A stretch of DNA of 40,282 nt, taken from contig CAJXKR010000002.1 of NCBI GenBank assembly GCA_913055815.1, positions 1-40,282 on the forward strand, read 5' to 3'. The position numbers were made by a program, and so were the translations under genes. Of the stretch, positions 1 through 39,159 are shown in pieces. This stretch comes from an uncultured Desulfohalobiaceae bacterium (GTDB lineage Bacteria; Desulfobacterota; Desulfovibrionia; Desulfovibrionales; Desulfothermaceae). The notes below the pieces were generated by a model, which worked only from the letters and a program-made list of their open reading frames with translations, did not search any database and was not told the origin of the DNA. Position 1 is the stretch's first letter. The number at the start of each line of letters is the position of its first letter.

Positions 1-470
1 AGCATTTTCTTCCCTCCTGACAGAGGTTTACGACCCGAGGGCCTTCTTCCCTCACGCGGCGTCGCTGGGTCAGGCTTCCGCCCATTGCCCAAGATTCCCC
101 ACTGCTGCCTCCCGTAGGAGTTTGGGCCGTGTTCCAGTCCCAATGTGGCTGATCATCCTCTCAAACCAGCTACCCATCGTCGCCTCGGTAGGCCGTTACC
201 CTACCAACTAGCTAATGGGACGCGGACCCTGCCAATGGCGCATGCTTGCATCAGAGGCACACTTTACCGCAAATCTCCCTGGAAATATGCGGATTATCCG
301 GTATTAGCCCCGCTTTCGCAGGGTTATCCCGAACCATCGGATGGGTTGTCCACGCGTTACTCACCCATCCGCCGCTTTACTCACCACCGAAGTGGCTTTC
401 TCGCTCGACTCGCATGTGTTAGGCACGCCGCCAGCGTTCATTCTGAGCCAGGATCAAACTCTCATATTTA
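1..470 (-). rRNA. rrs: 16S ribosomal RNA, 5' part (gene runs off the left edge)
   Basis: On the minus strand the universal 27F site (AGAGTTTGATCCTGGCTCAG) lies at about 443-462, followed by the 338-region site ACTCCTACGGGAGGCAGCAG near 100-120. The mature 5' end should be near position 470. The piece covers V1, V2 and the start of V3. The stretch GTCAGGAGGGAAGAA near the left edge and the start GAATGAACGCTGGCGGCGTG are typical of Desulfovibrionales. The 3' part of the gene and the rest of the operon lie outside the window. Open reading frames inside this region are not genes. Confidence 0.98.
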
Positions 471-8033: not shown

Positions 8034-9392
8034 TTATCGATTGGAAAGCAGCCCGTGGTGGCTCATTTTGGTCCTTAGCTGCTTTCTGGAGATGCCCAGG
8101 ATCCTGGCAGCGGCACTTTGGTTCCATTCAGTTTGGTCCAGTGCCTTGCAAAGCACGTTCTTTTCCACTTCCAGAAGGTTAAGGTTGTTCGAGGTATGGT
8201 TTTCCTCCTTCAAATCCGTTAGCCTGGGAGGAATACAGGCAGTGGTGATATATTCCCCGGTACAGAGCACCACCGCCCGTTCGATTACATTCTCCAATTC
8301 CCGAACGTTACCTGGCCAGTCGTAGGCCAAAAATATTTCCACAACCTCGTTCGCCACCCCTTCAATGGACTTGTTGTGCTTGGCATTGTAGCGCTCCAGG
8401 AAGAAATCGGCCAAAAGGCTGATATCCTCCTTGTGTTCTCTTAGTGGCGGCAGGTGCATGCTGATCACGTTGAGCCTGTAGTGTAGGTCCTCACGCCAGT
8501 TGCCATCCCTGATCTCCTGTTCCAGATCCTTGTTGGTCGCTGCCAGTATCCTGGCATTGATACTGAATTGCTTGTTACCTCCCACCCTGTTGAACTTCTT
8601 CTCTTGCAGGAATCTGAGTAGCTTTTTTTGTACTCCCAGGGGCAATTCCCCTATCTCGTCCAGGAAAAGGGTCCCGCCTTCAGCCATTTCTATTTGTCCC
8701 TTTTTATCTGCGGTAGCCCCGGTAAAGGCTCCCCTGACATGGCCGAAAAGTTCGGATTCCAGGAGTGTTTCCGGCATGGCGGCACAATCTATGGTTACAA
8801 AGGGCTTGTCGTGATACCCACTGGAATAGTGTATTGCCCTGGCTACCAATTCCTTGCCAGTACCTGTTTCACCTGTGATCAAGATATTGGATTCGTACCC
8901 CGCAACCTTTTCCAGCAGGTCAAAAAGATCCTGCATGGGCTTGCTTTTGCCCACAATGCCACCCAGGCTGTACCTTTGCCGCAATTGTTTTTTCAATTCC
9001 ACGTTCTCTTGTTCCAGGTTTTTCCTTTCCAGGGCTTTTTGCACCAACACGGAGAGCTCCTCCAGATTGACCGGTTTTGTCAAGTAGTTGTATGCCCCCA
9101 GCTTCATTGCCTGGACTGCGTTGTTGATGCTTCCATAGGCGGTGATTATAATAACCTTGATTCCCGGCCTGCACTCCACTATGTCCTGCAAGATATCCAG
9201 GCCGCTTTTCCCTGGGAGTTTCAAATCTGTTACAACCAAATGCACATCCGACTTGCCCAACTCGTTCCAAGCACCTTCTGCAGAGTTGGCGGTCAGCACC
9301 TCGTAGCCCTCCTTTTTCAGGAAGGTGGAGAGCACTTTCAGGGTGTTTGCCTCGTCATCTATAATAAGTATCTTTTGGTTTTCTTCCCGCAT
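8034..9392 (-). CDS. Sigma-54-dependent response regulator, NtrC family
   Basis: A 452-residue transcription activator. The receiver domain (about 7-120) has the acidic pair DDE at 12-14, phosphoacceptor Asp56 in VVTDLKLPG, and Lys106 in the TKPVN motif. The AAA+ domain (about 145-380) has Walker A GETGTGKE at 174-181 and the sigma-54 contact loop GAFTGA at 221-226. The C-terminal Fis-type helix-turn-helix is SAAARILGISRKQLRTKM. It is the last gene of a three-gene unit, 11 bases after the histidine kinase. Its likely targets are the two dyads at 12709-12758 and the -24/-12-like promoter before the transporter/oxidoreductase cluster; that link is inference from position. Confidence 0.95.
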   Translation of the reverse strand: MREENQKILIIDDEANTLKVLSTFLKKEGYEVLTANSAEGAWNELGKSDVHLVVTDLKLPGKSGLDILQDIVECRPGIKVIIITAYGSINNAVQAMKLGAYNYLTKPVNLEELSVLVQKALERKNLEQENVELKKQLRQRYSLGGIVGKSKPMQDLFDLLEKVAGYESNILITGETGTGKELVARAIHYSSGYHDKPFVTIDCAAMPETLLESELFGHVRGAFTGATADKKGQIEMAEGGTLFLDEIGELPLGVQKKLLRFLQEKKFNRVGGNKQFSINARILAATNKDLEQEIRDGNWREDLHYRLNVISMHLPPLREHKEDISLLADFFLERYNAKHNKSIEGVANEVVEIFLAYDWPGNVRELENVIERAVVLCTGEYITTACIPPRLTDLKEENHTSNNLNLLEVEKNVLCKALDQTEWNQSAAARILGISRKQLRTKMSHHGLLSNR

Positions 9393-9403
9393 AAATAAAC
9401 CTG

Positions 9404-11014
9404 TTACTCGTTGTTAAGACCCTTAACCAAACTGGTATCGGTTTTTACTCCGGGTATGGTTATGGTAAAGCTGCTCCCATACCCTGGCGTGCTTTGTACA
9501 TCAATACTACCCTGGTGTTCTTTTACATTCTGTTCCACAATTGCCAATCCAAGCCCGGATCCTTTGACTTTTCCGGTATAAAATGGCTTGAACATATCCT
9601 CTTGTTTGTCCGCTGGAATGCCTTCACCCGTATCCTGGATACAAAGGTGAACGTTATTATTTTCCAACCAGTTGTATACACGAATCATCCCGCCAGGGTC
9701 AGTGGCCTGGACAGCATTGACCAGGATGTTCAGCACTGCCTGCTTGAGCTTGGAGCCATCGAAATAAAAAGGAGGGATGCCCGGATCCAGGTTTGTCTCA
9801 AGCTCAATATCCTTGTCCTTGATCTCGCTATCTACAAGTTGCAGGGTTTCCCGTATCATTTGATTGAAATCCGACAACGTTATTTCAGCAGGGCCAGGTT
9901 TGGAAAAATTCAGGAAATCCTGGACAATATCGCTGAGTCTTTTGCTTTCTTCCTGGATGATGGATAAAAATTCCTGTAATAGCTTGCCGGAAAAATTGTT
10001 CTTCAAATAGTCGGCAGATCCCTTGATTGCGTTCAAGGGATTCTTTATCTCGTGGGCAACCTGGGAGGCCATCTGTCCCAGCAGGGACAATCTCTCCATC
10101 CTGTTCTTTTCCAGGTTTGCCTGCTCCAGCTTGTTTATATTCAGCTTCAAGTTCTTTACCATTTGGTTAAAGACCAGATTGAGCTCTCCTATCTCGTCTC
10201 CAGCAGCATGCTTGAACACTGGACAATTCATACACTTGCTCTGCTGCTGGAAATCGTTCAAGCTGGACATCCAGCACTGTTCCATATCCCTGGCTTCACA
10301 GTCAGGATTTAGACACTTGAAATAATATGCGCAGTCCATACTACGTTCATTGGAAATTTCCAGATCCAGGTCTCCCAGTTGTACCCGGTGCATGTTTTCC
10401 TTCAGCTTGCTTATTCTCTTGGTCATCATCCAGGCAAGCAAATAAGAGGAGAACATGCCCACAAAAAACAGTGCTGCGGAGAGGTAGAAAAGGTTGTAGC
10501 GCAACTCTTTTAGATTGGCAGCCACCAATTGAGATTCCTTGTACTTGTCTATCCCCAACACCGCCCACCCCAAGAGTTCTCCCCCCACCCGGACAGGGGC
10601 AAAATAATCCTGTATTGAAAGTCCCCTTATTTTTTTGTTCTTTATAAAAAAATCTTTTTTCTCGGGCAGTTGTACTTTATTACCCAGATTGGATCTATCT
10701 GTATGCGCTACTATCCTGCCCCTGGAATCGATAATATATGCATATTTGGACATTATGCTCTTTTGGGTGGATTTAACCAAACTGTCCAGTTGCTGGTAAT
10801 TATTCAGCAATAGCGGATCAACCGATTCCAAACTCAATTTTTTTACCATGCTGCGGTTTTTTTTCCTTAAATTTTCACTGAGATTTTGTGCATGGTATTT
10901 GTCTATGATTATAAAGAAGGCAATCAAGATTATCAGGATATTCACCAAAATGGCCAAGGTAAACTTGTGTTTCAGTTTCAACCTGTTCAGCAGGCTTGTT
11001 ACTCCGGTAATCAT
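9404..11014 (-). CDS. Membrane sensor histidine kinase with Cys-rich insert in the HAMP region
   Basis: A 536-residue kinase. TM1 is about 18-37 and TM2 about 174-196, enclosing a Cache/PAS-like periplasmic region (YAYIIDSRGRIVAHTDRSNL, about 91-110). A HAMP-like segment begins at about 197 (TKRISKLKENMHRVQLGDLD), is interrupted by about 40 residues with six Cys (228, 234, 239, 247, 261, 264), and resumes at GDEIGELNLVFNQM. The HisKA H-box has His321 in VAHEIKNPL; the ATPase boxes are NILVNAVQA, DTGEGIP and GSGLGLAI. The Cys set could hold a metal or FeS centre or be a thiol switch, which is inference. It overlaps the upstream binding-protein gene by ATGA and lies 11 bases before the response regulator. 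Confidence 0.93.
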   Translation of the reverse strand: MITGVTSLLNRLKLKHKFTLAILVNILIILIAFFIIIDKYHAQNLSENLRKKNRSMVKKLSLESVDPLLLNNYQQLDSLVKSTQKSIMSKYAYIIDSRGRIVAHTDRSNLGNKVQLPEKKDFFIKNKKIRGLSIQDYFAPVRVGGELLGWAVLGIDKYKESQLVAANLKELRYNLFYLSAALFFVGMFSSYLLAWMMTKRISKLKENMHRVQLGDLDLEISNERSMDCAYYFKCLNPDCEARDMEQCWMSSLNDFQQQSKCMNCPVFKHAAGDEIGELNLVFNQMVKNLKLNINKLEQANLEKNRMERLSLLGQMASQVAHEIKNPLNAIKGSADYLKNNFSGKLLQEFLSIIQEESKRLSDIVQDFLNFSKPGPAEITLSDFNQMIRETLQLVDSEIKDKDIELETNLDPGIPPFYFDGSKLKQAVLNILVNAVQATDPGGMIRVYNWLENNNVHLCIQDTGEGIPADKQEDMFKPFYTGKVKGSGLGLAIVEQNVKEHQGSIDVQSTPGYGSSFTITIPGVKTDTSLVKGLNNE

Positions 11015-12654
11015 TTGAAATCCACCAAATTCTCCAAGTGTAAGTATTCGTTGTATTCAGTCCTGTTGAACCCGCAGATCCTGGCCTGTTTGATTTTTTC
11101 CACAGGTTGCAGTTCTATTAGGGCTTGTTCCACTTTTTGGATCAATTCATTGGAGGCTCCGGGAGTGGATACAAGCGGCCAGTTGGGGAAATAGGATGTA
11201 TAATCAACTACCCGGATTTTTTGCATGTCCACTGTTTCCCGGACCATGCTTAACGCTGCTTCCCGGATAAATCCTGCATCCACCTTGCCGCGGTAAACAG
11301 CCAAAACAACCTGTTCGTGCCTTTTGCCCTCGCTAATTTCCGCCTGTTCCTGGATATCTATACCCTTTTCTTGTAAAAGTAGTTTTTGAAACCAATGCCC
11401 CCCAGCCGACTTTTGAGAAACAATCATGATCTTTTTACCCACCAGGTCTTGCAGTTCCCGGATATCGCTATCCTTTTTGGCAATAATTGCTCCCCTGAAT
11501 TCGTCCCTGGGTTTCCTCGGTTCCGGGCTTACGGTTTGAACCAAGGGACGCAGATCGATTTCCCTGTTCAAAAGCAAAAATACGTAAGGATTCTGGTATG
11601 CAAAGTCCACTTTGTTCTGCTTTACTATGCGGACAAACTCCTCAAAATCCTTGGGAATAACCAATCTGAATTCCCTGCCAGTCTTTTGGGTCAAGTACTC
11701 TGCCAGTGGTGAAAACATCCGATACATCTTTATCGAGGAATACAGGGGCAAGATCCCCAGCTTCAGGGCATCAGGGGGGTAGGTCAAGTAGTTGTCCCCG
11801 GTTGTATTGTTGAGTGCGATGCGCACTATATTGTATTCCCGGTCCTGGACAGGGGCAAAGGAATGCATGCGCTCCCTGGAAGGGCGGTATTCCAGGAGGG
11901 CCTTTTTAAGGTCAGATGCCAATTCCTTGTCCATGTCCCTGGAAACACACAAAAGGTATTGGGGCAGGGGCTTGGACTGCTTGATCACCCTGAGCCCTGC
12001 GGAACGATATTTATTGGCTGTTTTCAGGCTTATACCCCCCACATCGAAATCACCCACCAAAACACTCAGAGCTACCTGATCCTCTTTTTGCAAGTATTCC
12101 ACCCTGGAAAAATCCTTTAATCCAAGGCCGATTTCGTTGAACATTGCCAAGGGCATTAAAGAGCTGGAGGTGGAGTGCCTTTTCCCCAGGGCCAGGCTTT
12201 TACCCCGGAGTTGGACAATCTTTTCCAGGCCGGAATCCTTCCTGGCTACCAGAGCAGATTTGTTGTGCGGTTCTCTGTTTTTATGGACCTTGACCAGGGG
12301 GGTTACCTTGTATTTGTGCCTGGCCCGGCAATAGGCGGAAGGATCCAAATAGGCAATATCTGCCTCGCCTTTTTCGATCCCCCTCAAAGTCGCTTCGAGA
12401 TCTTCCTTTACCCTCATGTTTATCGATATATCAAGTCTTTTTTCCAAGTACTTCTTTACCGGGAAAAATTGTCGATACATCAGGCTGACTTTTCCCACCG
12501 GCTGCAGGAATAAATTCAGTTGCTCCGCACCCTGCTTTTCCTTGGCCAGGACTTTTTCACCTGTGCCAAAAAGCACAAGACTCAAAACGAGCATCAAACC
12601 TGAAAATACCAGGAAGAAACCTTGTTTGCTTTCATGGACTTGCTTTTTATTCAT
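11011..12654 (-). CDS. Exported tandem PhnD-type substrate-binding protein (putative sensor subunit)
   Basis: About 547 residues: an N-terminal signal or anchor segment (GFFLVFSGLMLVLSLVLFGT) and two PhnD/phosphonate-binding-like domains. The first begins LNLFLQPVGKVSLMYRQFFP, with GEADIAYLDPSAY; the second begins LKLGILPLYSSIKMYRMFSP, with NKVDFAYQNPYVF. The repeated 'D-A-Y..P..Y' motif lies in the family's ligand pocket. No ABC permease or ATPase is nearby; instead the gene overlaps a histidine kinase by 4 bases, so the protein probably presents a ligand to that kinase. TtrS and ThsS, sensors of tetrathionate and thiosulfate, carry PhnD-like domains in the kinase itself. I chose ATG 12654 (AAGG upstream); longer starts at 12678 or 12729 lack a ribosome site and run into the operator-like dyads. 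Confidence 0.88.
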   Translation of the reverse strand: MNKKQVHESKQGFFLVFSGLMLVLSLVLFGTGEKVLAKEKQGAEQLNLFLQPVGKVSLMYRQFFPVKKYLEKRLDISINMRVKEDLEATLRGIEKGEADIAYLDPSAYCRARHKYKVTPLVKVHKNREPHNKSALVARKDSGLEKIVQLRGKSLALGKRHSTSSSLMPLAMFNEIGLGLKDFSRVEYLQKEDQVALSVLVGDFDVGGISLKTANKYRSAGLRVIKQSKPLPQYLLCVSRDMDKELASDLKKALLEYRPSRERMHSFAPVQDREYNIVRIALNNTTGDNYLTYPPDALKLGILPLYSSIKMYRMFSPLAEYLTQKTGREFRLVIPKDFEEFVRIVKQNKVDFAYQNPYVFLLLNREIDLRPLVQTVSPEPRKPRDEFRGAIIAKKDSDIRELQDLVGKKIMIVSQKSAGGHWFQKLLLQEKGIDIQEQAEISEGKRHEQVVLAVYRGKVDAGFIREAALSMVRETVDMQKIRVVDYTSYFPNWPLVSTPGASNELIQKVEQALIELQPVEKIKQARICGFNRTEYNEYLHLENLVDFK

Positions 12655-12708: not shown

Positions 12709-12758
12709 TTGTCCCAGGCAGAACAACAAAACATAGCATTTTGTCCTCTTTGGGACAA
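12709..12758. promoter_or_regulatory. Two 18-bp dyads 32 bp apart: probable NtrC-type activator sites
   Basis: TTGTCC-N6-GAACAA (12709-12726) and TTGTCC-N6-GGACAA (12741-12758). The second is a perfect dyad and the first has one mismatch. The centres are exactly 32 bp apart, about three helical turns, so both lie on one face of the DNA. They fall between the divergent sensor operon and transporter/oxidoreductase cluster, about 85 and 117 bases upstream of the start expected from the -24/-12-like element at 12808. This is the usual place for sigma-54 enhancer sites. The binder is probably the NtrC-type regulator at 8034-9392. Confidence 0.6.
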
Positions 12759-12807
12759 CAGTAAAAGTTAAAAAAATATCAACCCGGCAAAATCAATATC
12801 TTAGTAC

Positions 12808-12825
12808 TTTGGCATGTTTTTTGAT
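12808..12825 (+). promoter_or_regulatory. Sigma-54 -24/-12-like promoter of the transporter/oxidoreductase cluster
   Basis: TTTGGCATGTTTTTTGAT keeps the -24 element (TTGGCAT) and the strict GG-N10 spacing, but the -12 dinucleotide is GA instead of GC. Together with two upstream dyads and a linked sigma-54 activator this is a credible though imperfect promoter. The start would be near 12836, giving a leader of about 530 bases before the first gene. Confidence 0.5.
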
Positions 12826-12842
12826 ATAAGTGACGGGTTTAA

Positions 12843-13088
12843 GATGAAAAAAGTTTTATGTTTTAGAGTTTTAAGGTGTAGAATAAGACTTTTCTCGCAA
12901 CGAAAGTATTCGTTGACGAGATTGCCCATCATTCGTTGTGGCCGCCAGGGCATGGGAGTTAACATGAAAAAGTTTTATGTTTTAGAGTGTTAAGGTTTTA
13001 AGTAAGAAAAAGAACCAATAGCCTGTTTATTCAACAAGTTGAGTACCTTTTCATGCTTCGTTGTGGCTGCCAGGGCATGGGAGTTAAG
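12843..13088 (+). repeat. Two tandem units of a modular dispersed repeat
   Basis: Unit 1 (12843-12962) and unit 2 (12963-13088) both begin with ATGAAAAA-GTTTTATGTTT and end with a block containing TTCGTTGTGG and CAGGGCATGGGAGTTAA, so a GGGAG ribosome site plus ATG marks each junction. The middle differs: unit 1 carries a hairpin (TCTCG..AACGAA-AGTA-TTCGTT..CGAGA, 12892-12920), unit 2 carries a block seen again, inverted, at 39066-39159. Bases 12959-13052 are identical to that inverted copy over 94 bases. Related units lie at 18899-19119. Short open frames start at these ATGs but soon end, so I do not call genes. Confidence 0.75.
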
Positions 13089-13112
13089 ATGAAAAAAGAA
13101 GCCTTTAAGCTC

Positions 13113-13226
13113 AAAAGCTGTTGAATTTTTGAACAAGAATAAAAGAGAGATTATGAGCCCATAACTCCTTAACTGCTTCCTGCTTAACAGCTTTTTTCGC
13201 CCCGCCCTGTCAAGGCAGGGACGGGG
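13113..13226 (+). promoter_or_regulatory. Structured part of the long leader before the TauE-type gene
   Basis: AAAAGCTGTT (13113-13122) and AACAGCTTTT (13186-13195) form a perfect 10-bp long-range pair directly followed by a T-run, as in a terminator or antiterminator arm. A second hairpin follows at 13200-13226 (CCCCG-CCCTG / CAGGG-A-CGGGG, one bulge). An attenuator or remnants of repeats are both possible. Confidence 0.35.
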
Positions 13227-13363
13227 TCGGGATCGCCCTTGCTTCGTTGTGTTTAATAGGAAAATACAGTCCAATACTGAGAGAGTTGGGTGTGTAATGA
13301 ATAAAGGCACTAACAGGAAACAATAAACTGTTATAAAACTAAAGCCCCCAAAAGGAGGAATTG

Positions 13364-15070
13364 ATGAGACAGCTGAAACCTGTGAAATGGATTTTTCCAA
13401 TTGTCGCGCTCTTGATGTTTTTATTGCCGCAGATCTTGTTCGCTGCTCAAGGGAAAATACAGGCCCAAATAGAAGGCAAAAAGCACAAGGCCGGGGACAA
13501 GATCACTATCAAAGGGCAAATACAGCCAGGGAGCGATCTGAACGTAGCTGTATTTTCGGAAAGGGAGTTTGCTCCGCAGGAAGCAGAAGGGGTGAACGAA
13601 AAAAAGGCCTTTAAGGATGCAGTAAGAAATCATGCGTTTGAGATGGATACATCCGTGCCTGTGTTTTACTACATGCTCACGAACGAGCCCTCGCAGTACG
13701 GGAACATCTCCAAGGAAAAGTTCGGTGGCCCCTCTTTTATCGATGGGCTGTACAGTACTACAATGTTCAATTTGACAAACTGGGACAATCTGGACACGCA
13801 GCTGAAAAACTATCTGGGACCTTTGGACTCCAGGGAAAAATGGTCCTTTTACAAGTACAACCACGAAAACACCTACGGAATTAATACTGTGACCAAGGAA
13901 AGGACCCAAGTGGGCAAGGTGACCATATTTTCCCGCAGTGTGCTCTCGGATCACGAGAAGAGCGGCAACTACTGGGACAAAGGCACAAGCATAGACCTGG
14001 ACAAAGAGACCGGTAAATTTACAGCCACTTTCAACTCCTTTAGGCATACCCCGCCGGACACTGACTTCAACGTCTATGTAAACGGGGAAAAGATCGGGAG
14101 CTACAACCTGGCAGGCAACGGTTTCTGGCTCTCCATGGGCGGAAGGTATATGAATCCCCTCTGGATCATTATAGGCGCCATCCTGGTAGGTGCCTTCTTC
14201 TCCCTGATCGGTGCAGCAGGAGGAATGCTCATGGCTGCCTTCCAGGTTATGGTGGTAAACACCATGGGCCCCGTAGGCTTGAATGCCGCCAATGTGCTCA
14301 GGCCTTCCAACGTGGCACTGACCCTGTTTTCTCCCCTGGGCGGTTTTTACCGCTATGCAGTAAAGGAAAAGCGCGTGGCCTGGCCTGTGGGGATATCGTT
14401 CGGTATAGGTATACTACTTGGCTCCATCTGGATAGGCAAATACGTAACCGAGCTTCTACCCATGTCCAGTTACAAGGAATGGCTGGCAGTTTTGGTCGTG
14501 CTAATGGCTATTAGAACCGTGTACGAACTGACCCCGAGGGTTATGGAGAAGCGCAAGAATATCAAGGCAATGACAGAAAAATTCAACCAGGAAGTACAAA
14601 AGGCCAGGGAAGAAGGCCGTGCCACTCAAATGGGCAAAATTGAACCCGTACAAAGGGGAATTTTCGATTACAGGTTCAAATTCTGGGGAGAAGAGTTCAG
14701 GATCAACCCATTTCTCTTTTTCATCATCGGAGTAGGTGTGGGGATTGTATCCAGGTGCTTCGGAATCGGCGGGGGATTTCTGCTCACACCGATCATGACC
14801 ATGATCGGGGCCCTGCCTATGTATGTTGCTGTTCCGGTGTCCCTGGTGGGTACCTGCTTCTCCAGTATCGGTTCCTTTATAGGCTATTTGGCCAACGGTT
14901 ATTTACCTGACTTCTGGATTGCCCTGGCCATAGTCATTGGCGGTTTTGTGGGCGGAGTAATCGGAAGCAGGATGCAAAAGATGTTCACCGAGGTGCAGCT
15001 TAAAATTATCCTGGCACTGGTACTCTTTTTCCTGTTCTTCCGCTTCTTCAAGATCGAGATCTGGATCTAG
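13364..15070 (+). CDS. TauE/SafE (TSUP) family transporter with a large N-terminal exported domain
   Basis: A 568-residue membrane protein. A signal-like segment (WIFPIVALLMFLLPQILFA, about 9-28) is followed by about 235 polar residues (HKAGDKITIKGQIQPGSDLN onward) that should lie outside the cytoplasmic membrane. The rest is the TSUP transporter with about eight helices: GAFFSLIGAAGGMLMAAFQV and, after a cytoplasmic loop rich in charged residues (about 390-440), GVGVGIVSRCFGIGGGFLLT, the paired glycine-rich half-repeats of the family. TSUP proteins move sulfite, sulfonates or other sulfur anions. The ATG at 13364 has AGGAGG at 5 bases; the TTG at 13361 is too close to it. It is first in the cluster facing the PhnD-like sensor operon. 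Confidence 0.92.
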   Translation: MRQLKPVKWIFPIVALLMFLLPQILFAAQGKIQAQIEGKKHKAGDKITIKGQIQPGSDLNVAVFSEREFAPQEAEGVNEKKAFKDAVRNHAFEMDTSVPVFYYMLTNEPSQYGNISKEKFGGPSFIDGLYSTTMFNLTNWDNLDTQLKNYLGPLDSREKWSFYKYNHENTYGINTVTKERTQVGKVTIFSRSVLSDHEKSGNYWDKGTSIDLDKETGKFTATFNSFRHTPPDTDFNVYVNGEKIGSYNLAGNGFWLSMGGRYMNPLWIIIGAILVGAFFSLIGAAGGMLMAAFQVMVVNTMGPVGLNAANVLRPSNVALTLFSPLGGFYRYAVKEKRVAWPVGISFGIGILLGSIWIGKYVTELLPMSSYKEWLAVLVVLMAIRTVYELTPRVMEKRKNIKAMTEKFNQEVQKAREEGRATQMGKIEPVQRGIFDYRFKFWGEEFRINPFLFFIIGVGVGIVSRCFGIGGGFLLTPIMTMIGALPMYVAVPVSLVGTCFSSIGSFIGYLANGYLPDFWIALAIVIGGFVGGVIGSRMQKMFTEVQLKIILALVLFFLFFRFFKIEIWI

Positions 15071-15086: not shown

Positions 15087-15120
15087 GCACCCATTAACCG
15101 GGGCTCCGGTTGATGGGTGC
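15087..15120 (+). terminator. Strong intercistronic hairpin (terminator or attenuator)
   Basis: A 15-bp stem with one G-U pair and a GGCT loop (GCACCCATTAACCGG and CCGGTTGATGGGTGC), followed by AAATTTTATT. It begins 16 bases after the TauE-type stop codon and may partly terminate transcripts or set mRNA stability between the first and second gene. It would bury an ATG at 15113. Confidence 0.6.
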
Positions 15121-15148
15121 AAATTTTATTAACAAGGATGTATCTTTT

Positions 15149-15778
15149 ATGGATGCAATTTGGCTTTTTATACTGGAATGCGCCAACCTGGCCAAAGTTG
15201 GCTTGAATCAAGCCTTCAGCCCCTTGCACTTCCTGGGGCCGGCATTTACCCTGTTTGTTATAGCCCTGTTGACCGCACTTCTAACCCACATCCTCTCCAA
15301 GCACATCAAGACCAGGAGGTTGCAAAAACTGCAACAGGAGTTCGAGTACTGGTACAAGATAAGACATCAGGCCCTGAATTCCGAACAAGACCAGGACAGG
15401 GGGAAACAAAAGGCCAGGGACATAGACAAGGGAAAGCTGAACGAATTATACTACAACTATTTTATAGAAGGGCTGTTGAACAATCTTTTGACCAAATACA
15501 TCCCTGTTCTCAGTGTATTGGTCTACATCAATCATGCATACAATCCAGAAAGGCTGCAGGCAGTCTTTGGCCGGGAATATGTTTTCAGTCTCTGGAACCA
15601 GGGTAGTGATCCCATCCTCGTGGGTTCCATATTCTGGTTTATTATCTGCCTTGTACTGAGTTATATATTTATTTTTGCCCTTAAGCATTACTTGGGGGCA
15701 AGAATACGCAAATCAAAAGAAACACCCGCATTGCGCGGAAAATCTGCTTCTGCAGCAAATACGGGAATGAATTTATGA
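15149..15778 (+). CDS. Small three-TM membrane protein, DUF106/EMC3-like in layout
   Basis: About 209 residues. A first membrane helix (FTLFVIALLTALLTHILSKH) is followed by a long charged helical region rich in Lys, Gln and Glu (RLQKLQQEFEYWYKIRHQAL onward, about 50-105), then a helix LLTKYIPVLSVLVYI and a last helix VGSIFWFIICLVLSYIFIFA. One helix, a cytoplasmic coiled coil and two helices is the order in DUF106/EMC3/TMCO1 proteins of the YidC/Oxa1 superfamily; the resemblance is in layout and is not proof. I chose ATG 15149 (AAGGA about 10 bases upstream) over starts at 15110-15113, which fall inside the hairpin. Its stop overlaps the next start by ATGA, so the two proteins are probably made together. 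Confidence 0.75.
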   Translation: MDAIWLFILECANLAKVGLNQAFSPLHFLGPAFTLFVIALLTALLTHILSKHIKTRRLQKLQQEFEYWYKIRHQALNSEQDQDRGKQKARDIDKGKLNELYYNYFIEGLLNNLLTKYIPVLSVLVYINHAYNPERLQAVFGREYVFSLWNQGSDPILVGSIFWFIICLVLSYIFIFALKHYLGARIRKSKETPALRGKSASAANTGMNL

Positions 15779-16215
15779 AAGATACTCTGGAAGTTTTGGT
15801 CCAATGGCTGGACTTGAAGGTACCGAATTGGTTCGCCCTGATCTCCGGGGCCTCCTTGGGCATCCTGGGAGTCTGTGCCCTGGGTTTCCTGGTAGTGGTG
15901 TTCGCCCCGGACAAATCCATAATCCTAATGCCCGGCGTGGTATTGTTTTGCGGTATTAGTTGCGGATACAAGTTCTGGGAAAAAAGACAAAACGACATCA
16001 GGCTGCTCAAGATTGGCATGTATCTGCTGGCCGGTCTTATCACCGCCGGAGTGGGAATTGCGATCCAGTACAACCTGGACAGGTATTTATTTCAGACCCA
16101 GACTCCCCCAGGGGCAATACTGCTACTTATTGTTTGCGGTCCTTTGGGTGCAGTCCTGGGAGTATGGCTGCGTGATAAATATGAGAGACTGCAACAAACA
16201 GGTACGAATCCATAA
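15775..16215 (+). CDS. Small four-helix membrane protein of unknown function
   Basis: 146 residues with four likely membrane helices: about 20-43 (ALISGASLGILGVCALGFLV), 48-65 (IILMPGVVLFCGISCGYKF), 78-98 (GMYLLAGLITAGVGIAIQY) and 113-131 (GAILLLIVCGPLGAVLGVWL). I recognise no family. Its ATG overlaps the stop of the preceding three-TM protein gene, and the oxidoreductase gene follows 27 bases later, so it belongs to the same operon. It may serve the transporter or anchor the enzyme to the membrane, which is a guess. Confidence 0.8.
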   Translation: MKDTLEVLVQWLDLKVPNWFALISGASLGILGVCALGFLVVVFAPDKSIILMPGVVLFCGISCGYKFWEKRQNDIRLLKIGMYLLAGLITAGVGIAIQYNLDRYLFQTQTPPGAILLLIVCGPLGAVLGVWLRDKYERLQQTGTNP

Positions 16216-16242: not shown

Positions 16243-18333
16243 ATGGCAGAACAAGTTTACAGCCAGTGCTTTATGTGTTCCATCCGTTGTCCCATAAAGG
16301 TTACAGTGGAAAACGGACAAGTTCGCTTCATCCAGGGCAATCCCCATGTACCGGGAATCAAGGGAAGCTTGTGTCCCAAGGGTGTCGCAGGGTCCGCTCT
16401 TGTGAACGATCCCCAGAGGGTGCAATCCCCCATGATCAGGAACGGCCCCAGGGGGAGCGGACAATGGAGAAGTGCATCCTGGGACGAGGCACTTGATTAT
16501 ATCGCGGACAAGGTAAACAAAATAAAGGAGCAATACGGGGGCAAAAGTATTGCCTTCGGGGAACGCGCCCAATTAAGCACCCATGTGAGCAAGACATTTA
16601 CCAGGGCTGTTCTGGAATCCCCCAACTACTTCTCGCACGATGCCCTTTGCAAGGGTTCTATAAATACCGCGTGCAGATCCTTGTTCGGTTATACCGACGG
16701 GCAGATCGGCATGGACTATTCCAACGCCAAACACCTGGTTCTTTACGGCAGGAATATATTCGAGAGCATCCAAGTCAAGCCGGTGAATCAAATCATGGAT
16801 GCCCTGGAAAACGGGGCAAAACTCACATATATCGATCCCAGGGTAACAGTTACCGCCAGCAAGGCCCACCGCTACTGGATGATTCGTCCCGGCACGGATC
16901 TGGCTTTGAATTACGGACTTATCCATACCATAATAAACGAAAGGCTCTACGACCAAACATTTGTGGATAATTGGGTCAAGGGCATGGATAAGCTAAGCCA
17001 ATTTATCCGTCCCTACACACCGGAATGGACTGAAGGGGAAACCGGGATACCGGCTACGGAAATCCGGGAATTTGCCCGGGAAGTTGCCAAGGACAAGCCC
17101 TCGGTGATCTTTCACATGGGATACAGGGGTGCGCACCATCAAAATGAAATCCACCTCAGGCGTTCCATAATGATACTGAACTCCCTCATGGGGAGCATAG
17201 AAGCCAAGGGAGGCAATTTTATCAAGAAAGGGCCTGGAGAAGTAGACGCAAAACCGGCCAGAAAACTTACAGAACAAGACCTTCCCCATGTGGATGAGGC
17301 CAGGTTCGACAAGGTGGGCACTCCGGATTTTCCCTTGCCAGATCCCAACCACGGAGTAGCCCAAATGTTGCCCCAGGCTATCCTGGACCAGGACCCATAC
17401 CCGATCAAGGGACTTTTTGCATTCAGGTTCGATCCCTTGATGTCCATACCTGATACCAACTTCACCAAAAAGGCTTTGCAAAAACTGGAACTGGTGGTGA
17501 GCATAGATATAAATTACAGCGACATAGCCTGGAATTCGGATGTAATACTCCCGGAATCCACTTATCTGGAGCGCATGGACAGTCCGCAGCAAGCAAACAG
17601 CCTGAAACCACAGATCTTTTTGCGTCAGCCGGCTATAAGCCCGGTGTTTGATACCCTGCCCGGGCCTATTATCCTGAAGCGATTGGCTGAAAAGATGAAC
17701 GCTGGCGAATATTTCCCCTACAACAGCATGGAGGAGTTGGTTGACTGGCAGCTGGAACCCACTGGATTTTGCCTGCAGGACTTCAGGGAAAAAGGCTTTG
17801 TATCCTATACAGACAAAAGTATCTTCTGGGACAGGGAAGATGGTCTCAAATTCAAGACCCCTTCGGGAAAGATAGAGTTCGATTCCTCACTTCTGGAAAA
17901 CGCTGGCTTTGATTCCTTTCCTGAATACGAATCAGCCTCCAAGCCCAAGCAAAAGGACGAGTTCAGGCTGATCGTGGGTAGATGTGCTCAGCACACGCAC
18001 GTATCCACGCAAAACAACCCCCTGCTCAACGAATTGGTCCCGGAGAACGTACTCTGGATTAATTCCAAAAAGGCGGAAGAACTGGGAATTGGTAACAATT
18101 CCCTGGTAAGAGTGGTATCCGGACAAGCTTCCGGTACAATAAAAGCCAAGGTTACTGACTGCATCCATCCGCATTCCGTATTTATGCTCCACGGATTCGG
18201 GCACGAATCCGAACTTGCCCTGCGCTCCTTCAACAAGGGGGTTTCGGATGCAACCCTGCAAAAAAACGTTACTGACAAGGTAGGCGGCAGTCCGGGATTG
18301 CACGAAACCTTTGTGCAAGTAAAGACAGCTTGA
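16243..18333 (+). CDS. Molybdopterin oxidoreductase, polysulfide/thiosulfate reductase-like catalytic subunit, no Tat signal
   Basis: A 696-residue member of the DMSO reductase superfamily binding bis-MGD and one [4Fe-4S] cluster. Cluster ligands are Cys9, Cys12, Cys16 and Cys44 (CFMCSIRC, then GSLCPKG). The likely Mo ligand is Cys136 in SHDALCKGSINTACR, as in PsrA/PhsA-type enzymes. Later landmarks are YIDPRVTVTASKAHRYWMIR (MGD binding), SDVILPESTYLERMDSPQQ and a C-terminal MGD domain with GRCAQHTHVSTQNNPLLNEL. PsrA and PhsA are exported with a twin-arginine leader; this protein starts at the cluster motif, so it should be cytoplasmic. Substrate is unproved; a sulfur oxyanion or polysulfide fits the neighbours. 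AGGAG lies 8 bases before the ATG. The ferredoxin subunit follows 64 bases downstream. Confidence 0.93.
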   Translation: MAEQVYSQCFMCSIRCPIKVTVENGQVRFIQGNPHVPGIKGSLCPKGVAGSALVNDPQRVQSPMIRNGPRGSGQWRSASWDEALDYIADKVNKIKEQYGGKSIAFGERAQLSTHVSKTFTRAVLESPNYFSHDALCKGSINTACRSLFGYTDGQIGMDYSNAKHLVLYGRNIFESIQVKPVNQIMDALENGAKLTYIDPRVTVTASKAHRYWMIRPGTDLALNYGLIHTIINERLYDQTFVDNWVKGMDKLSQFIRPYTPEWTEGETGIPATEIREFAREVAKDKPSVIFHMGYRGAHHQNEIHLRRSIMILNSLMGSIEAKGGNFIKKGPGEVDAKPARKLTEQDLPHVDEARFDKVGTPDFPLPDPNHGVAQMLPQAILDQDPYPIKGLFAFRFDPLMSIPDTNFTKKALQKLELVVSIDINYSDIAWNSDVILPESTYLERMDSPQQANSLKPQIFLRQPAISPVFDTLPGPIILKRLAEKMNAGEYFPYNSMEELVDWQLEPTGFCLQDFREKGFVSYTDKSIFWDREDGLKFKTPSGKIEFDSSLLENAGFDSFPEYESASKPKQKDEFRLIVGRCAQHTHVSTQNNPLLNELVPENVLWINSKKAEELGIGNNSLVRVVSGQASGTIKAKVTDCIHPHSVFMLHGFGHESELALRSFNKGVSDATLQKNVTDKVGGSPGLHETFVQVKTA

Positions 18334-18397
18334 AAAAATGGCAATCCAAAAGGATGGAAAAACACAATAAAGCTAACAGTTAAGCGGAGCTAAAAAT

Positions 18398-18898
18398 ATG
18401 AGCAAATACTATCTGTTTCAGGATCAAAAGAAATGTATTGGTTGCGAGGCATGTGTGGCAGCCTGCAAAGTCAAGAACAATCTTTCTTACGGTCCCCTGC
18501 CCTGCCTGATAGTAACAGTGGGACCGAAATGGGTGGGTGAGCAGCCCAGGACTTCCTTTACCTATATGTCCTGTTTCCATTGCGAGAACCCCTGGTGTGT
18601 TGCTGCCTGCCCCACTGGTGCCATGCAGAAGAGGAGCGAAGATGGTATTGTCTTTGTGGACCAGAACCTGTGTGTGGGCTGCAAGACCTGTATGTCCGCA
18701 TGTCCATGGGGAGCCCCGCAGTGGGATCCTTCCAACGGCAAGGTGGTAAAGTGCGACTTGTGCATGGATCGCGTGGACGCAGGGCTGGATCCAGCCTGCG
18801 TTACTGTCTGCACCACTGACTGTCTCCATTTCGGGACCCCGGATCAAATACCGGAAATCAGGAGAAAGAGATATGCCCGGGCCAAGGCTTGGGAATGA
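18398..18898 (+). CDS. Four-cluster ferredoxin subunit (NrfC/PhsB/PsrB type)
   Basis: A 166-residue electron-transfer protein with four [4Fe-4S] motifs in the DMSO-reductase beta-subunit order: CIGCEACVAAC (13-23), CFHCENPWCVAACP, CVGCKTCMSACPWG and CDLCMDRVDAGLDPACVTVC. These wire electrons to the molybdopterin subunit encoded just upstream. No signal peptide is present, consistent with a cytoplasmic complex. No NrfD/PsrC-type membrane quinol subunit follows; flavin and NuoG-like subunits follow instead, suggesting electrons come from NAD(P)H or ferredoxin rather than quinol. GGAG lies 8 bases before the ATG. Confidence 0.95.
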   Translation: MSKYYLFQDQKKCIGCEACVAACKVKNNLSYGPLPCLIVTVGPKWVGEQPRTSFTYMSCFHCENPWCVAACPTGAMQKRSEDGIVFVDQNLCVGCKTCMSACPWGAPQWDPSNGKVVKCDLCMDRVDAGLDPACVTVCTTDCLHFGTPDQIPEIRRKRYARAKAWE

Positions 18899-19119
18899 TA
18901 GAAAAGTTTTAAGGTTTTAAGGTGTTAAGGTTTTAGGTAAGAAAAACAACTAGTTATTCCAACTGACTACCGATATACAGACTACAGACGCACTGTTTTT
19001 GCCCGCAAGGGAATGGGAGTTAACATGAAAAAAGTTTTATGTTTTAGAGTTTTAAGGTTTTAAGGTGTAGAATAAGACTTTTCATCATTCGTTGTGCCCG
19101 CAAGGGAATGGGAGTTAAT
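18899..19119 (+). repeat. Dispersed repeat units that provide the start region of the flavoprotein gene
   Basis: A partial, diverged unit (18899-19022) and a fuller one (19023-19119) of the family seen at 12843-13088. Both end in GCCCGCAAGGGAATGGGAGTTAA. The second ends exactly at the ATG at 19120, so its GGGAG is the ribosome site of the real gene. The segment also has short AAGGTTTTAAGGT-type repeats. It may separate expression of the flavin/NuoG-like part from the first part of the cluster. Confidence 0.7.
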
Positions 19120-21285
19120 ATGAATATAAGCAGATGCCAAGTGATAGAGACCTACGATTGGATCCAGGGGAAGCAGGATGCCGGAGAGTTGACACATCCG
19201 CGCTGCAGGCAGAAGGCTTCGGAAGCCCTGGAACTTGTGCACGATATCGCAACAGGCAGTGCAGGGAACGAACATTTGACCGCCCTGACATCCCTGGGCA
19301 AGACACTGGAACAAGAGGGACTCACCCCGGAATGTAAACAGCTGGGCCAAAAACTGAGCCAAATACTGCAAGAGAACCGGGAAGTCTTTCAAAGTCATAT
19401 ACTGACTCATACCTGCCCCAGCGGGGATTGTCCCCAACTCACCCCCTCCCCCTGCCAAATGGCCTGTCCGGCTGGAATCGATGTTCCCAGCTATCTCACC
19501 CTGATCGGACAGGGCAGATACGAAGAGGCAATACGCATAATCAGGCGGGACAATCCCTTTGCTTGGGTTTGCGGACTGGTCTGCACCCATCCCTGTGAGT
19601 TTATGTGTGTAAGGGGCAGGATGGACAGTCCCATTTCCATAATGCAACTAAAAGGATTTGCTGCGGAAAAGGCAATATCCGCACAGAGATATATAAACCC
19701 GGAACAACAGGAAGATAATGGGAAGAAGGTCTGCGTACTGGGAGCCGGTCCCGGAGGCTTGGCCGGGGCATACTACCTGGCCCTGATGGGCTACCGGGTG
19801 ACGGTGTTGGAGTCCCTTCCGGTTGCAGGCGGTATGATGATGGTGGGCATTCCCAGATATCGCCTGCCCAGGGAAGTTATAGACCGGGAAGTCTCCATGA
19901 TAGAAGATCTGGGTGTGGAAATCCGCCTGAACACCAAAGTGGGCAGGGATGTCAGCATCCAGGACCTGAAAAACGAGGGTTTTCAAGCCTTCTTGCTAGC
20001 GATTGGTGCACATACTTCCTACAAGCTGGGTATCGAGGGTGAAGACGATTATCAGCAGGTAGAGTCTGCAGTGGATTTCCTGCGCAGGGTGAATCTGGGT
20101 AATCACCGCAAACCCGGCAAGAGGGTTGCCATCGTGGGTGGCGGCAATGTCGCCATCGACGCTGCCAGGACCTGCATTCGCCTGGGGTGCGAATCCGTAA
20201 GCGTCCTCTACCGCAGAAGCCACGACCAAATGCCAGCGCACAAGGAAGAAGTGATCGAGGCTGAAGAAGAAGGAGTGGGCTTTTCCTTTCTTACCGTACC
20301 ATCCCGGATCGTGGGTGAACAAGGCAAGGTGTGCGGGATAAAATGCCTGCGGGCGGAACTAAGCGAGCCTGATGCAAACGGCAGGCAAAAACCAATGCCA
20401 GTTGAAGGTAGTGAACACACTATGGAAGTGGATGCTGTGATCCCGGCCATTGGGCAGGGAGTGGATGCTAGCGGCTTGGAAGACCTGCAGGAGATCAGCT
20501 GGACCAAAAGGAATACCATCTCCGTACATACCTCCAGCATGGAGACGCATTCACCCGGATACTTCGCAGCAGGAGACGTGGTAACAGGTCCGGCAACCAT
20601 AGTAGAAGCGATAGCAGGCGGAAAAAAGGCGGCACTGGCAATCAACCGCTATTTCGAGGACATTCCCCAGCCTTCGATGCCGCCTGTACCTGTCAGGAGG
20701 AGAAAACTGGACTTCCCTAATATACCCGCCTCCCTGAAGATGGACCTGGACAGGCCGAATGTGGAGGTACTAAACACTGAGAGGAGAAGGATCACCTTTC
20801 AGCAAGTGCACCTGGGACTGACTGAAGACAAGGCCAATAGTGAGTGTAAAAGGTGTTTGAGATGCGACGTTTGCATGAGGTGCGGCAAGTGTGTACAGAT
20901 TTGCAGGGATCAGATGGGAATAGACGCACTGCAAATCGGATACTTGGATTTTGATAATCCGGGCAGGACAGACTTGAAGATTGCCGCGGAACGTTGTATA
21001 TGCTGCGGAGCCTGCGCCACAAACTGCCCCACCGGGGCAATGCAAATGTACGATCAAGACGGAGAACGCGTTCTTTCCCTGTGTGGTACTGAACTGAACA
21101 GATTAAAGCTTGAATATTGCGAGTATTGTGGTAAGGTCTTGGGACCGAGGAGGTACCACGATTATATTACCAACAGGCTAAAGGACATAAGCCCGGCCCT
21201 GGGCAACCGCAGTATCTGCATAGATTGCGCCAGGAAGCACAGCGGTCAAGTGCACGCGGAAACCGAGCCCCCGAACAAATTTTAG
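19120..21285 (+). CDS. GltD/NfnB-like FAD-NAD(P)H oxidoreductase with N-terminal degenerate NuoF-type domain and C-terminal ferredoxin domain
   Basis: About 721 residues in four parts. Residues 1-105 resemble the NuoF C-terminal FeS domain (spacing of THPRC, LTPECKQLGQ and SHILTHTCPSGDC), but the CxxCxxC of NuoF is reduced to one Cys, so the N3-type cluster is probably lost. Residues 106-185 are the GltD-type FeS domain (CQMACPAGIDVPSYL, VCGLVCTHPCEFMCVRG). Then comes the two-nucleotide core: FAD site VLGAGPGGLAGAYYLALMGY, NAD(P)H site VAIVGGGNVAIDAARTCIRL and GYFAAGDVVTGPATIVEAIA. The C-terminus has two [4Fe-4S] motifs (CDVCMRCGKCVQIC, CICCGACATNCPTGAM) and a zinc-ribbon-like end (CEYCGK, CIDCARKH). 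It likely passes NAD(P)H electrons to the ferredoxin and Mo subunits. ATG 19120 is chosen for GGGAG at 5 bases; ATG 19108 lacks spacing. Confidence 0.92.
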   Translation: MNISRCQVIETYDWIQGKQDAGELTHPRCRQKASEALELVHDIATGSAGNEHLTALTSLGKTLEQEGLTPECKQLGQKLSQILQENREVFQSHILTHTCPSGDCPQLTPSPCQMACPAGIDVPSYLTLIGQGRYEEAIRIIRRDNPFAWVCGLVCTHPCEFMCVRGRMDSPISIMQLKGFAAEKAISAQRYINPEQQEDNGKKVCVLGAGPGGLAGAYYLALMGYRVTVLESLPVAGGMMMVGIPRYRLPREVIDREVSMIEDLGVEIRLNTKVGRDVSIQDLKNEGFQAFLLAIGAHTSYKLGIEGEDDYQQVESAVDFLRRVNLGNHRKPGKRVAIVGGGNVAIDAARTCIRLGCESVSVLYRRSHDQMPAHKEEVIEAEEEGVGFSFLTVPSRIVGEQGKVCGIKCLRAELSEPDANGRQKPMPVEGSEHTMEVDAVIPAIGQGVDASGLEDLQEISWTKRNTISVHTSSMETHSPGYFAAGDVVTGPATIVEAIAGGKKAALAINRYFEDIPQPSMPPVPVRRRKLDFPNIPASLKMDLDRPNVEVLNTERRRITFQQVHLGLTEDKANSECKRCLRCDVCMRCGKCVQICRDQMGIDALQIGYLDFDNPGRTDLKIAAERCICCGACATNCPTGAMQMYDQDGERVLSLCGTELNRLKLEYCEYCGKVLGPRRYHDYITNRLKDISPALGNRSICIDCARKHSGQVHAETEPPNKF

Positions 21286-21356
21286 CAGTACTTGCGTGTC
21301 TTGGACTGAATAAGTCGGGCTAATCTGGAGATTTTAATAAGAAACGGGGTAACATT

Positions 21357-21566
21357 ATGACATTTAGCCAGGGACAAAAGGTGGAGATTTTTCAAAGCTC
21401 CGGGGACGAAAGCTGGGAGACCTACATGGAGGAATTTATAGGAATGCACGGGGTAATCACCGACCCGGATGCGAACAAGAACGACCCGGACGACCTGGTG
21501 GAAGTCAGCCTGGACGAGAAGGGCACTTTCCGCTTTCCCCAGGACTGCTTGAAGATAATTTCCTGA
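21357..21566 (+). CDS. Small conserved-looking acidic protein, possible SH3-like fold
   Basis: 69 residues, acidic, without Cys clusters except one Cys near the end (FPQDCLKI). The pattern GQKVEIF, then FIGMHGVITDPDAN, LVEVSLDEKGTFRFPQD suggests a small beta-barrel of SH3/KOW type, but I do not recognise a family. It sits between the flavoprotein and NuoG-like genes, 71 bases after one and 18 before the other, in the same direction, so it is probably an accessory or assembly protein of that enzyme. Its ribosome site is weak. Confidence 0.7.
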   Translation: MTFSQGQKVEIFQSSGDESWETYMEEFIGMHGVITDPDANKNDPDDLVEVSLDEKGTFRFPQDCLKIIS

Positions 21567-21584
21567 ACACGAGGATAATCGCAT

Positions 21585-22337
21585 ATGCCAGAGGTAATAC
21601 TGAACAATAGCCCAATTTCGGCAAGACAAGACCAAAACATCCTGGAACTGGCCCGTGAACATGATATCGAGATACCGGCGCTCTGTTACCACCCGGCGCT
21701 TTCTCCGGCCGCTTCCTGCAAATTGTGCGCAGTGGAAGTAAAGACCCCGGACAAGCCTTTCCAGATCAAGCTGGCATGTGTTACAAAAGTAAAACCGGGA
21801 ATGGAGATAAAGACAGAATCAGCAGCAGTTTACGAGGCCAGGACTACTGCCTTCAACACCCTTATAAGATATGCACCTGAATCCGAAGCTATTCGTGACC
21901 TGGCCCGCAAGTTCTCTATTGACCTTGGTCCTACACCGGACGAATGCATCCGTTGCAGGCTCTGCATCAGGGTTTGCAAAGAAGTAGTGGGGGCCGATGC
22001 CCTGGGTATGGAAAAGAGGGGAAGTGAAAATTTTGTAGTTCCCAAAGAGGGGAATGAATGTATCGGCTGCGGTACCTGCGCAAATATTTGCCCCACAGGT
22101 GCAATCAAAATGAAGGACCGGGACAATATTCGCTACATCTATATAAGGGATGAAATAATCAGCCAAAACCCCTTGCTTCGCTGCGAGGCCTGCGGGAAAT
22201 ACTTCGCTACCAGCAAGTTCCTGAACCTGGTACAACAAAGGGAGCGCGAGGCACAACATCCTGAATTGAAGGAACAACACAATTACTGTCCCACGTGTGC
22301 CAAACTCCTTTCTGACAAGACAAAACTATCTCCCTAA
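21585..22337 (+). CDS. NuoG N-terminal-like FeS protein ([2Fe-2S] plus two [4Fe-4S])
   Basis: 250 residues. The N-terminus is a [2Fe-2S] ferredoxin fold with Cys34, Cys45, Cys48 and Cys65 (CYHPALSPAASCKLC, LAC), as in NuoG, HndD and HoxU. The His-Cys3 cluster segment that normally follows in NuoG is absent. Two [4Fe-4S] motifs follow: Cys121/124/127/131 (CIRCRLCIRVC) and Cys159/162/165/169 (CIGCGTCANICPTGAI). The tail carries a zinc-ribbon-like pair (CEACGKYFATSKFLN and CPTCAK) that resembles the tail of the flavoprotein two genes upstream. It probably connects an electron donor to the enzyme complex. GAGG lies 10 bases before the ATG. It is the last gene of the cluster. Confidence 0.9.
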   Translation: MPEVILNNSPISARQDQNILELAREHDIEIPALCYHPALSPAASCKLCAVEVKTPDKPFQIKLACVTKVKPGMEIKTESAAVYEARTTAFNTLIRYAPESEAIRDLARKFSIDLGPTPDECIRCRLCIRVCKEVVGADALGMEKRGSENFVVPKEGNECIGCGTCANICPTGAIKMKDRDNIRYIYIRDEIISQNPLLRCEACGKYFATSKFLNLVQQREREAQHPELKEQHNYCPTCAKLLSDKTKLSP

Positions 22338-38957: not shown

Positions 38958-39159
38958 TTGTTCTCGACTACGAAGTAGCGAGAACAACTCCTTCATTTTA
39001 ACTCCCATGCCCTGGCGGGCACAACGAAGCATGGGCAATCTCGTCAACAAACACTTTTGTAGCGAGAAAAGGTACTCAACTTGTTGAATAAACAGGCTAT
39101 TGGTTCTTTTTCTTACTTAAAACCTTAACACTCTAAAACATAAAACTTTTTCATGTTAA
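38958..39159 (-). repeat. Inverted copy of the modular dispersed repeat with flanking hairpin
   Basis: Read on the minus strand, 39159-39066 is identical over 94 bases to 12959-13052. It continues with a TCTCG...CGAGA hairpin like the one in unit 1 at 12892-12920 and with TTCGTTGTGCCCGCCAGGGC and GGGAGTTAA. A further hairpin at 38958-38987 (TTGTTCTCG-A-CTAC-GAA-GTAG-CGAGAACAA) closes the element. It fills most of the gap 38865-39217; no gene is there. Confidence 0.8.

Follow-up and report, generated by a model that had tools for sequence, protein, structure and literature searches.

The window, by which we mean the whole stretch of 40,282 nucleotides that was analysed, contains two divergent gene groups separated by the intergenic region studied here. 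The reverse strand encodes a periplasmic PhnD-type binding protein with two Phosphonate-bd domains (11011..12654; PF12974 and TIGR01098, each matched twice), a sensor histidine kinase with an sCache domain (9404..11014; Pfam sCache_3_2, HAMP, HisKA and HATPase_c) and an NtrC-type response regulator (8034..9392; Pfam Response_reg, Sigma54_activat and HTH_8), of which the first is likely to be the signal receptor and the last is the proposed binder of the operators described below. In this regulator the receiver aspartate (TDLK), the GAFTGA motif of the AAA+ domain and the Fis-type helix-turn-helix are all intact. On the forward strand, a gene for a sulfite-exporter-like permease of the TauE/SafE type, which has an extended N-terminal region (13364..15070; PF01925, orthologues found) is the predicted first gene of the controlled operon, and is followed by two small membrane-protein genes (15110..16215), the first of them EMC3/TMCO1-like with a PF01956 match barely above cut-off. 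Next are forward-strand genes for a molybdopterin oxidoreductase, a four-cluster FeS subunit, a GltD-like flavoprotein and a 2Fe-2S/4Fe-4S protein (16243..22337), a set which is conserved in related loci and which probably represents the rest of the tauE operon or linked units. The bacterial protein with the EMC3/TMCO1 insertase-family match (15110-15778) adjoins tauE in nearly all loci. The best matches of the molybdoenzyme were PhsA in NCBIfam (below cut-off) and the thiosulfate/polysulfide reductase 2vpw in the PDB, with only 43.6 bits against the arsenite oxidase model, and the oxidoreductase has no space for a signal peptide at its start (MAEQVYSQCFMC). The window also contains the 5' part of a 16S rRNA gene (1-469, reverse strand), truncated by the contig end, and rpoN is present elsewhere in the same genome (PF04552 match at C210, E 7.8e-62).

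The initial annotation had described two TTGTCC-N6-GRACAA dyads 32 bp apart in the intergenic region, together with a -24/-12-like element with GG-N10 spacing, and all of these are present on the forward strand. Exact matches to the dyad pattern are found at 12709..12726 (distal operator, dyad 1, TTGTCCCAGGCAGAACAA) and 12741..12758 (proximal operator, dyad 2, TTGTCCTCTTTGGGACAA), with dyad 2 matching exactly on both strands and being the better palindrome of the pair; their start-to-start distance of 32 bp corresponds to 3.05 helical turns, placing the pair on one face of the DNA, and is conserved. Two exact dyads in the window compare with 0.03 expected from shuffled windows, and the draft genome (353 contigs with 3.07 Mb in total, 85% complete) contains the exact pattern three times, twice in the window pair and once (C155:2092) within a 469-aa reading frame. 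The predicted σ54 promoter element TGGCATGTTTTTTGAT is located at 12810..12825, and when compared with the consensus (TGGCAY...TTGCW, GG-N10-GC spacing) it keeps GG-N10-G and has one mismatch in the 16-mer, with GA instead of GC at -12. Such an element alone is not significant, as 0.87 one-mismatch matches are expected per window, and hence the case for the promoter rests on comparison between genomes; the composite of dyad and promoter element was found in 0 of 20,000 shuffled upstream sequences. With transcription predicted to start at approximately 12836, the dyad centres are at about -86.5 and -118.5, close to the -85 and -117 given initially and within the roughly 80-150 bp upstream that is expected of paired activator sites. 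The spacer between operators and promoter contains a perfect match to the IHF motif WATCAANNNNTTR (AATCAATATCTTA, 12791..12803, forward strand), for which the chance in a shuffled spacer is 0.007; because none of the four other promoters described below has a perfect match at the corresponding place, we regard it as a possible IHF site.

Among 296 other genomes of the order that were searched, 6 have orthologs of tauE, and orthologs were also found in 25 further loci. The paired dyads, here called circuit A, are shared by five tauE-type promoters in four genomes (the window, G033, G006, and two in G002), with dyad spacings of 32, 32, 32, 31 and 34 bp, so that each of the four other promoters has a counterpart of the distal dyad 31–34 bp upstream of the proximal one. 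The distance from the start of the proximal dyad to the T of TGGnA-N6-TTG is exactly 69 bp in all five, and the position of the promoter element is thereby conserved, while the core TGT.C...G.ACA is present without exception in the ten dyad sites when read on both strands. The second tauE copy of G002 (G002:C17:41495-43162) has its own dyad pair and promoter, with no other cluster genes nearby. A search for the composite of proximal dyad and promoter in 348 genomes of the order recovered the five promoters and one match in G206, with a single further match (G499) in the phylum sample, while the backward-read control gave none among the genomes listed. The matches in G206 and G499 are located inside long open frames without a tauE-cluster homolog nearby and were dismissed as chance, with approximately 0.5 chance matches estimated for 16 fixed bases in the DNA searched. 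Extension of the regulon was also considered: other exact dyads are scattered in seven genomes, with those at C155 and near the regulator in G006 lying in coding sequence, and in G002 a further dyad, located between tauE and the EMC3-like gene, lacks a -24/-12 element at a distance of up to 300 bp. As dyad counts were close to the backward-read control for most genomes, we do not claim any further regulon target.

The distribution of the regulator mirrors that of the dyads. Orthologs of the window regulator (E<=1e-135, 348 genomes) were found in three other genomes, with 66% (G002), 62% (G006) and 54% (G033) identity, and a scan of related genomes, as proposed in the initial annotation, placed the dyad arrangement at tauE in exactly these regulator-bearing genomes, although with four genomes both the co-occurrence and the tauE comparison are small. 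The recognition-helix region of the four orthologs reads SRKQLRTKM or SRKRLRTKM and is unlike that of any other regulator compared. G218, G023 and G038 contain tauE without such dyads, and their closest regulator has at most 47% identity. In G006 the phnD-kinase-regulator operon (approximately 126-131 kb) and tauE (approximately 2,795 kb) lie far apart on a contig of 2,864 kb, separated by about 0.2 Mb around the circle or 2.7 Mb along the contig, and the dyads are kept at tauE, while no good dyad was found upstream of the phnD operon, an arrangement that speaks for tauE as the target of the sites and for the regulator as their binder. The sequence elements, the constancy of their spacing and the joint presence of dyads and regulator were observed directly, and together the fixed 69 bp and the co-occurrence strongly support the view that the dyads are the sites of the neighbouring NtrC-type activator next to a σ54 promoter, as had been suggested for the window. 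The G033 ortholog (L023:5551-6921) has a glutamate in place of the phospho-acceptor aspartate (TDLK to AELE) and GAFTSA for GAFTGA, and a homolog of the phnD sensor was not found in the draft genome of G033; this regulator may resemble a natural phospho-mimic that does not need phosphorylation to act.

The autoregulatory alternative, in which the dyads chiefly control the divergent phnD-kinase-regulator operon and tauE is controlled otherwise, draws on dyad 1 being located just ~55 bp ahead of the start codon of phnD (12654) and on the intergenic position of both dyads. It is difficult to reconcile with G006, where the phnD operon has no good upstream dyad and the distant tauE has the pair, with the G002 tauE copy that has a dyad pair without a linked regulator, or with the fixed 69 bp that leads to a tauE-directed σ54 element, and we consider it very unlikely. 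It is even harder to maintain that an unrelated repressor or global regulator occupies the dyads and that the -24/-12 match is accidental: while the match by itself does not exceed chance expectation for a window of this size and its GA at -12 is off consensus, the 69 bp are invariant in five promoters and the dyads co-occur exactly with an NtrC-type regulator ortholog, leaving this as the least probable of the readings considered.

The window promoter itself could also be decayed and nonfunctional, having lost the C at -12 and acquired repeats in its leader, with another promoter driving tauE. The assembly does read GA at -12, and only in the window, with GC (TTGCT) in all four other promoters, so that the strength of the window promoter is uncertain; the GA at 12823-12824 may also be an assembly error. 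The initial suggestion that this GA may render the promoter weak and tightly dependent found no support in the comparison. Moreover, about 400 bp of dispersed repeats, overlooked in the initial annotation, are located between the promoter and tauE, after the predicted start (forward strand, approximately 12840..13250, with two full copies at 12936-12966 and 13061-13091), giving a predicted leader from promoter to tauE start of ~525 nt versus 79-164 nt for the other four promoters. Weighed against such decay are the intact state of both operators, of the rest of the promoter element, of the regulator genes and of the entire operon, as well as the only σ70-like match of the region (12959-12988), which is at chance level; loss of function is thus unlikely, albeit the most plausible of the three alternatives to σ54-dependent activation of tauE.

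The leader repeat TTGTGGCCGCCAGGGCATGGGAGTTAANATG has 45 occurrences in the window genome (<=3 mismatches) and none in 777 kb of relatives' DNA (<=6 mismatches), and no known RNA element was found in the leader with Rfam at the gathering cut-off. Within the window, copies of the repeat family TTGTGSCCGCCAGGGCATGGGAGTTAANATG are located at 12936-12966, 13061-13091, 18997-19027, 19092-19122 and 38994-39024 (reverse strand). The TTGTGSCCGCCAGGGCATGGGAGTTAANATG repeat terminates in an apparent ribosome binding site and ATG, and a few copies continue directly into long reading frames, for instance that of the GltD-like gene. Hairpins of the form TCTCG...CGAGA are found beside these repeats, with paired changes (CTAC/GTAG, CCAC/GTGG), and there is one partial match to a Y1-transposase in the window genome.

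A different arrangement, circuit B, was found at 11 tauE loci of other Desulfobacterota, two of which (G023 and G038) belong to the same family as the window. In each of them a -24/-12 element is preceded, at a distance of 153-176 bp, by at least one TGCAA-N8-TTGCA site, and in 10 of the 11 by a second such site 76-89 bp further upstream, the paired sites being about 87 bp apart overall; the loci were first assigned to this circuit by visual inspection and scanned afterwards, with approximately 0.4 one-mismatch matches expected by chance per upstream region. Paired TGCAA-N8-TTGCA sites are located upstream of tauE in L028, L029, L032-L035, L039, L045, L050-L052 and L054, with L052 having the pair and no clear promoter match. 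Some of the circuit-B promoters are almost 600 bp from tauE, so that another small gene may come first. Several circuit-B loci encode another NtrC-type regulator, whose helix is LERQALQQIMRRY and whose gene often directly follows the EMC3-like gene; this regulator is 67% identical in G038 versus at most 50% in circuit-A genomes. In the tauE tree the circuit-A sequences form a well-supported group with the circuit-B locus L032 nested inside (99/95), and therefore either the swap took place within this clade, or circuit A arose twice. The different operator and regulator at the same tauE set indicate that σ54 control persisted through an exchange of the activator together with its sites, and we think it somewhat probable from these sequence comparisons that the tauE gene set passed between two unrelated NtrC-type regulators with retention of a σ54 promoter. 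Two alternative circuits on one target would represent a compact case of rewiring of σ54 control.

With a probability of roughly 0.87, the 117-bp stretch serves as enhancer and promoter for the genes of the tauE-molybdoenzyme set, switched by the PhnD-type protein, the kinase and the σ54 activator. In the proposed mechanism, a ligand that is probably an oxyanion, of sulfur or of another element, would bind the periplasmic PhnD-type protein, which would in turn switch on the histidine kinase, allowing it to phosphorylate the NtrC-type regulator. The phosphorylated regulator would form an oligomer on the two TTGTCC-N6-GGACAA dyads, approximately three helical turns apart, and the DNA between enhancer and promoter would bend, possibly with involvement of IHF, after which the AAA+ domain would remodel σ54 RNA polymerase at TGGCATGTTTTTTGAT in an ATP-dependent manner, resulting in initiation at approximately 12836. 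Here it is the phosphorylation of the regulator, its binding, the looping and the start site that we infer. The divergent phnD operon may also be under the control of these dyads. For a tauE-molybdoenzyme gene set that is widespread in sulfate reducers yet uncharacterised, the analysis thus predicts an exact operator together with its promoter and regulator; a direct description of this gene set was not found in the literature on sulfur disproportionation. The operator prediction is exactly testable, and may reveal both the signal and the substrate.

Comparison with known systems points to the AioX-AioS-AioR/aioBA system as the nearest counterpart, with a PhnD-like binding protein, a kinase and an NtrC-type regulator encoded beside a molybdoenzyme operon. 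Upstream of aioBA there are two tandem palindromes and a -24/-12 element, found only where aioXSR is present (PMC3834237, PMC6011840), and the same layout of sensor, kinase, regulator, two palindromes and a -24/-12-like element is found in the window. In contrast to AioXSR, the binding protein of the window has two PhnD domains, and the enzyme is PhsA/PsrA-like and is preceded by tauE. Since the cognate enzyme is not AioA, the window system is best described as working like AioXSR without being AioXSR. According to the main text on the Desulfovibrio vulgaris Hildenborough regulons (PMC4641369), NtrC-type regulators of this species, which belongs to the same order, have small local regulons and TGT...ACA-type half sites, with the nearest activator site usually less than 100 nt from the promoter; the spacing of TGT and ACA is given there as 9, 11 or 12 bp, compared to 10 bp here, and the same main text lists no TauE, thiosulfate or phosphonate target. 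The GlrR (QseF) sites at enterobacterial glmY and glmZ have the same TGTC/GACA half sites and are likewise bound by a two-component NtrC-type regulator, but the half sites are 10 bp apart versus 8 bp here, and the target genes are unrelated (PMC4987338). This kind of regulation is already known from other bacteria, and the present comparison adds an exact predicted operator for an uncharacterised gene set and a probable case of regulator replacement.
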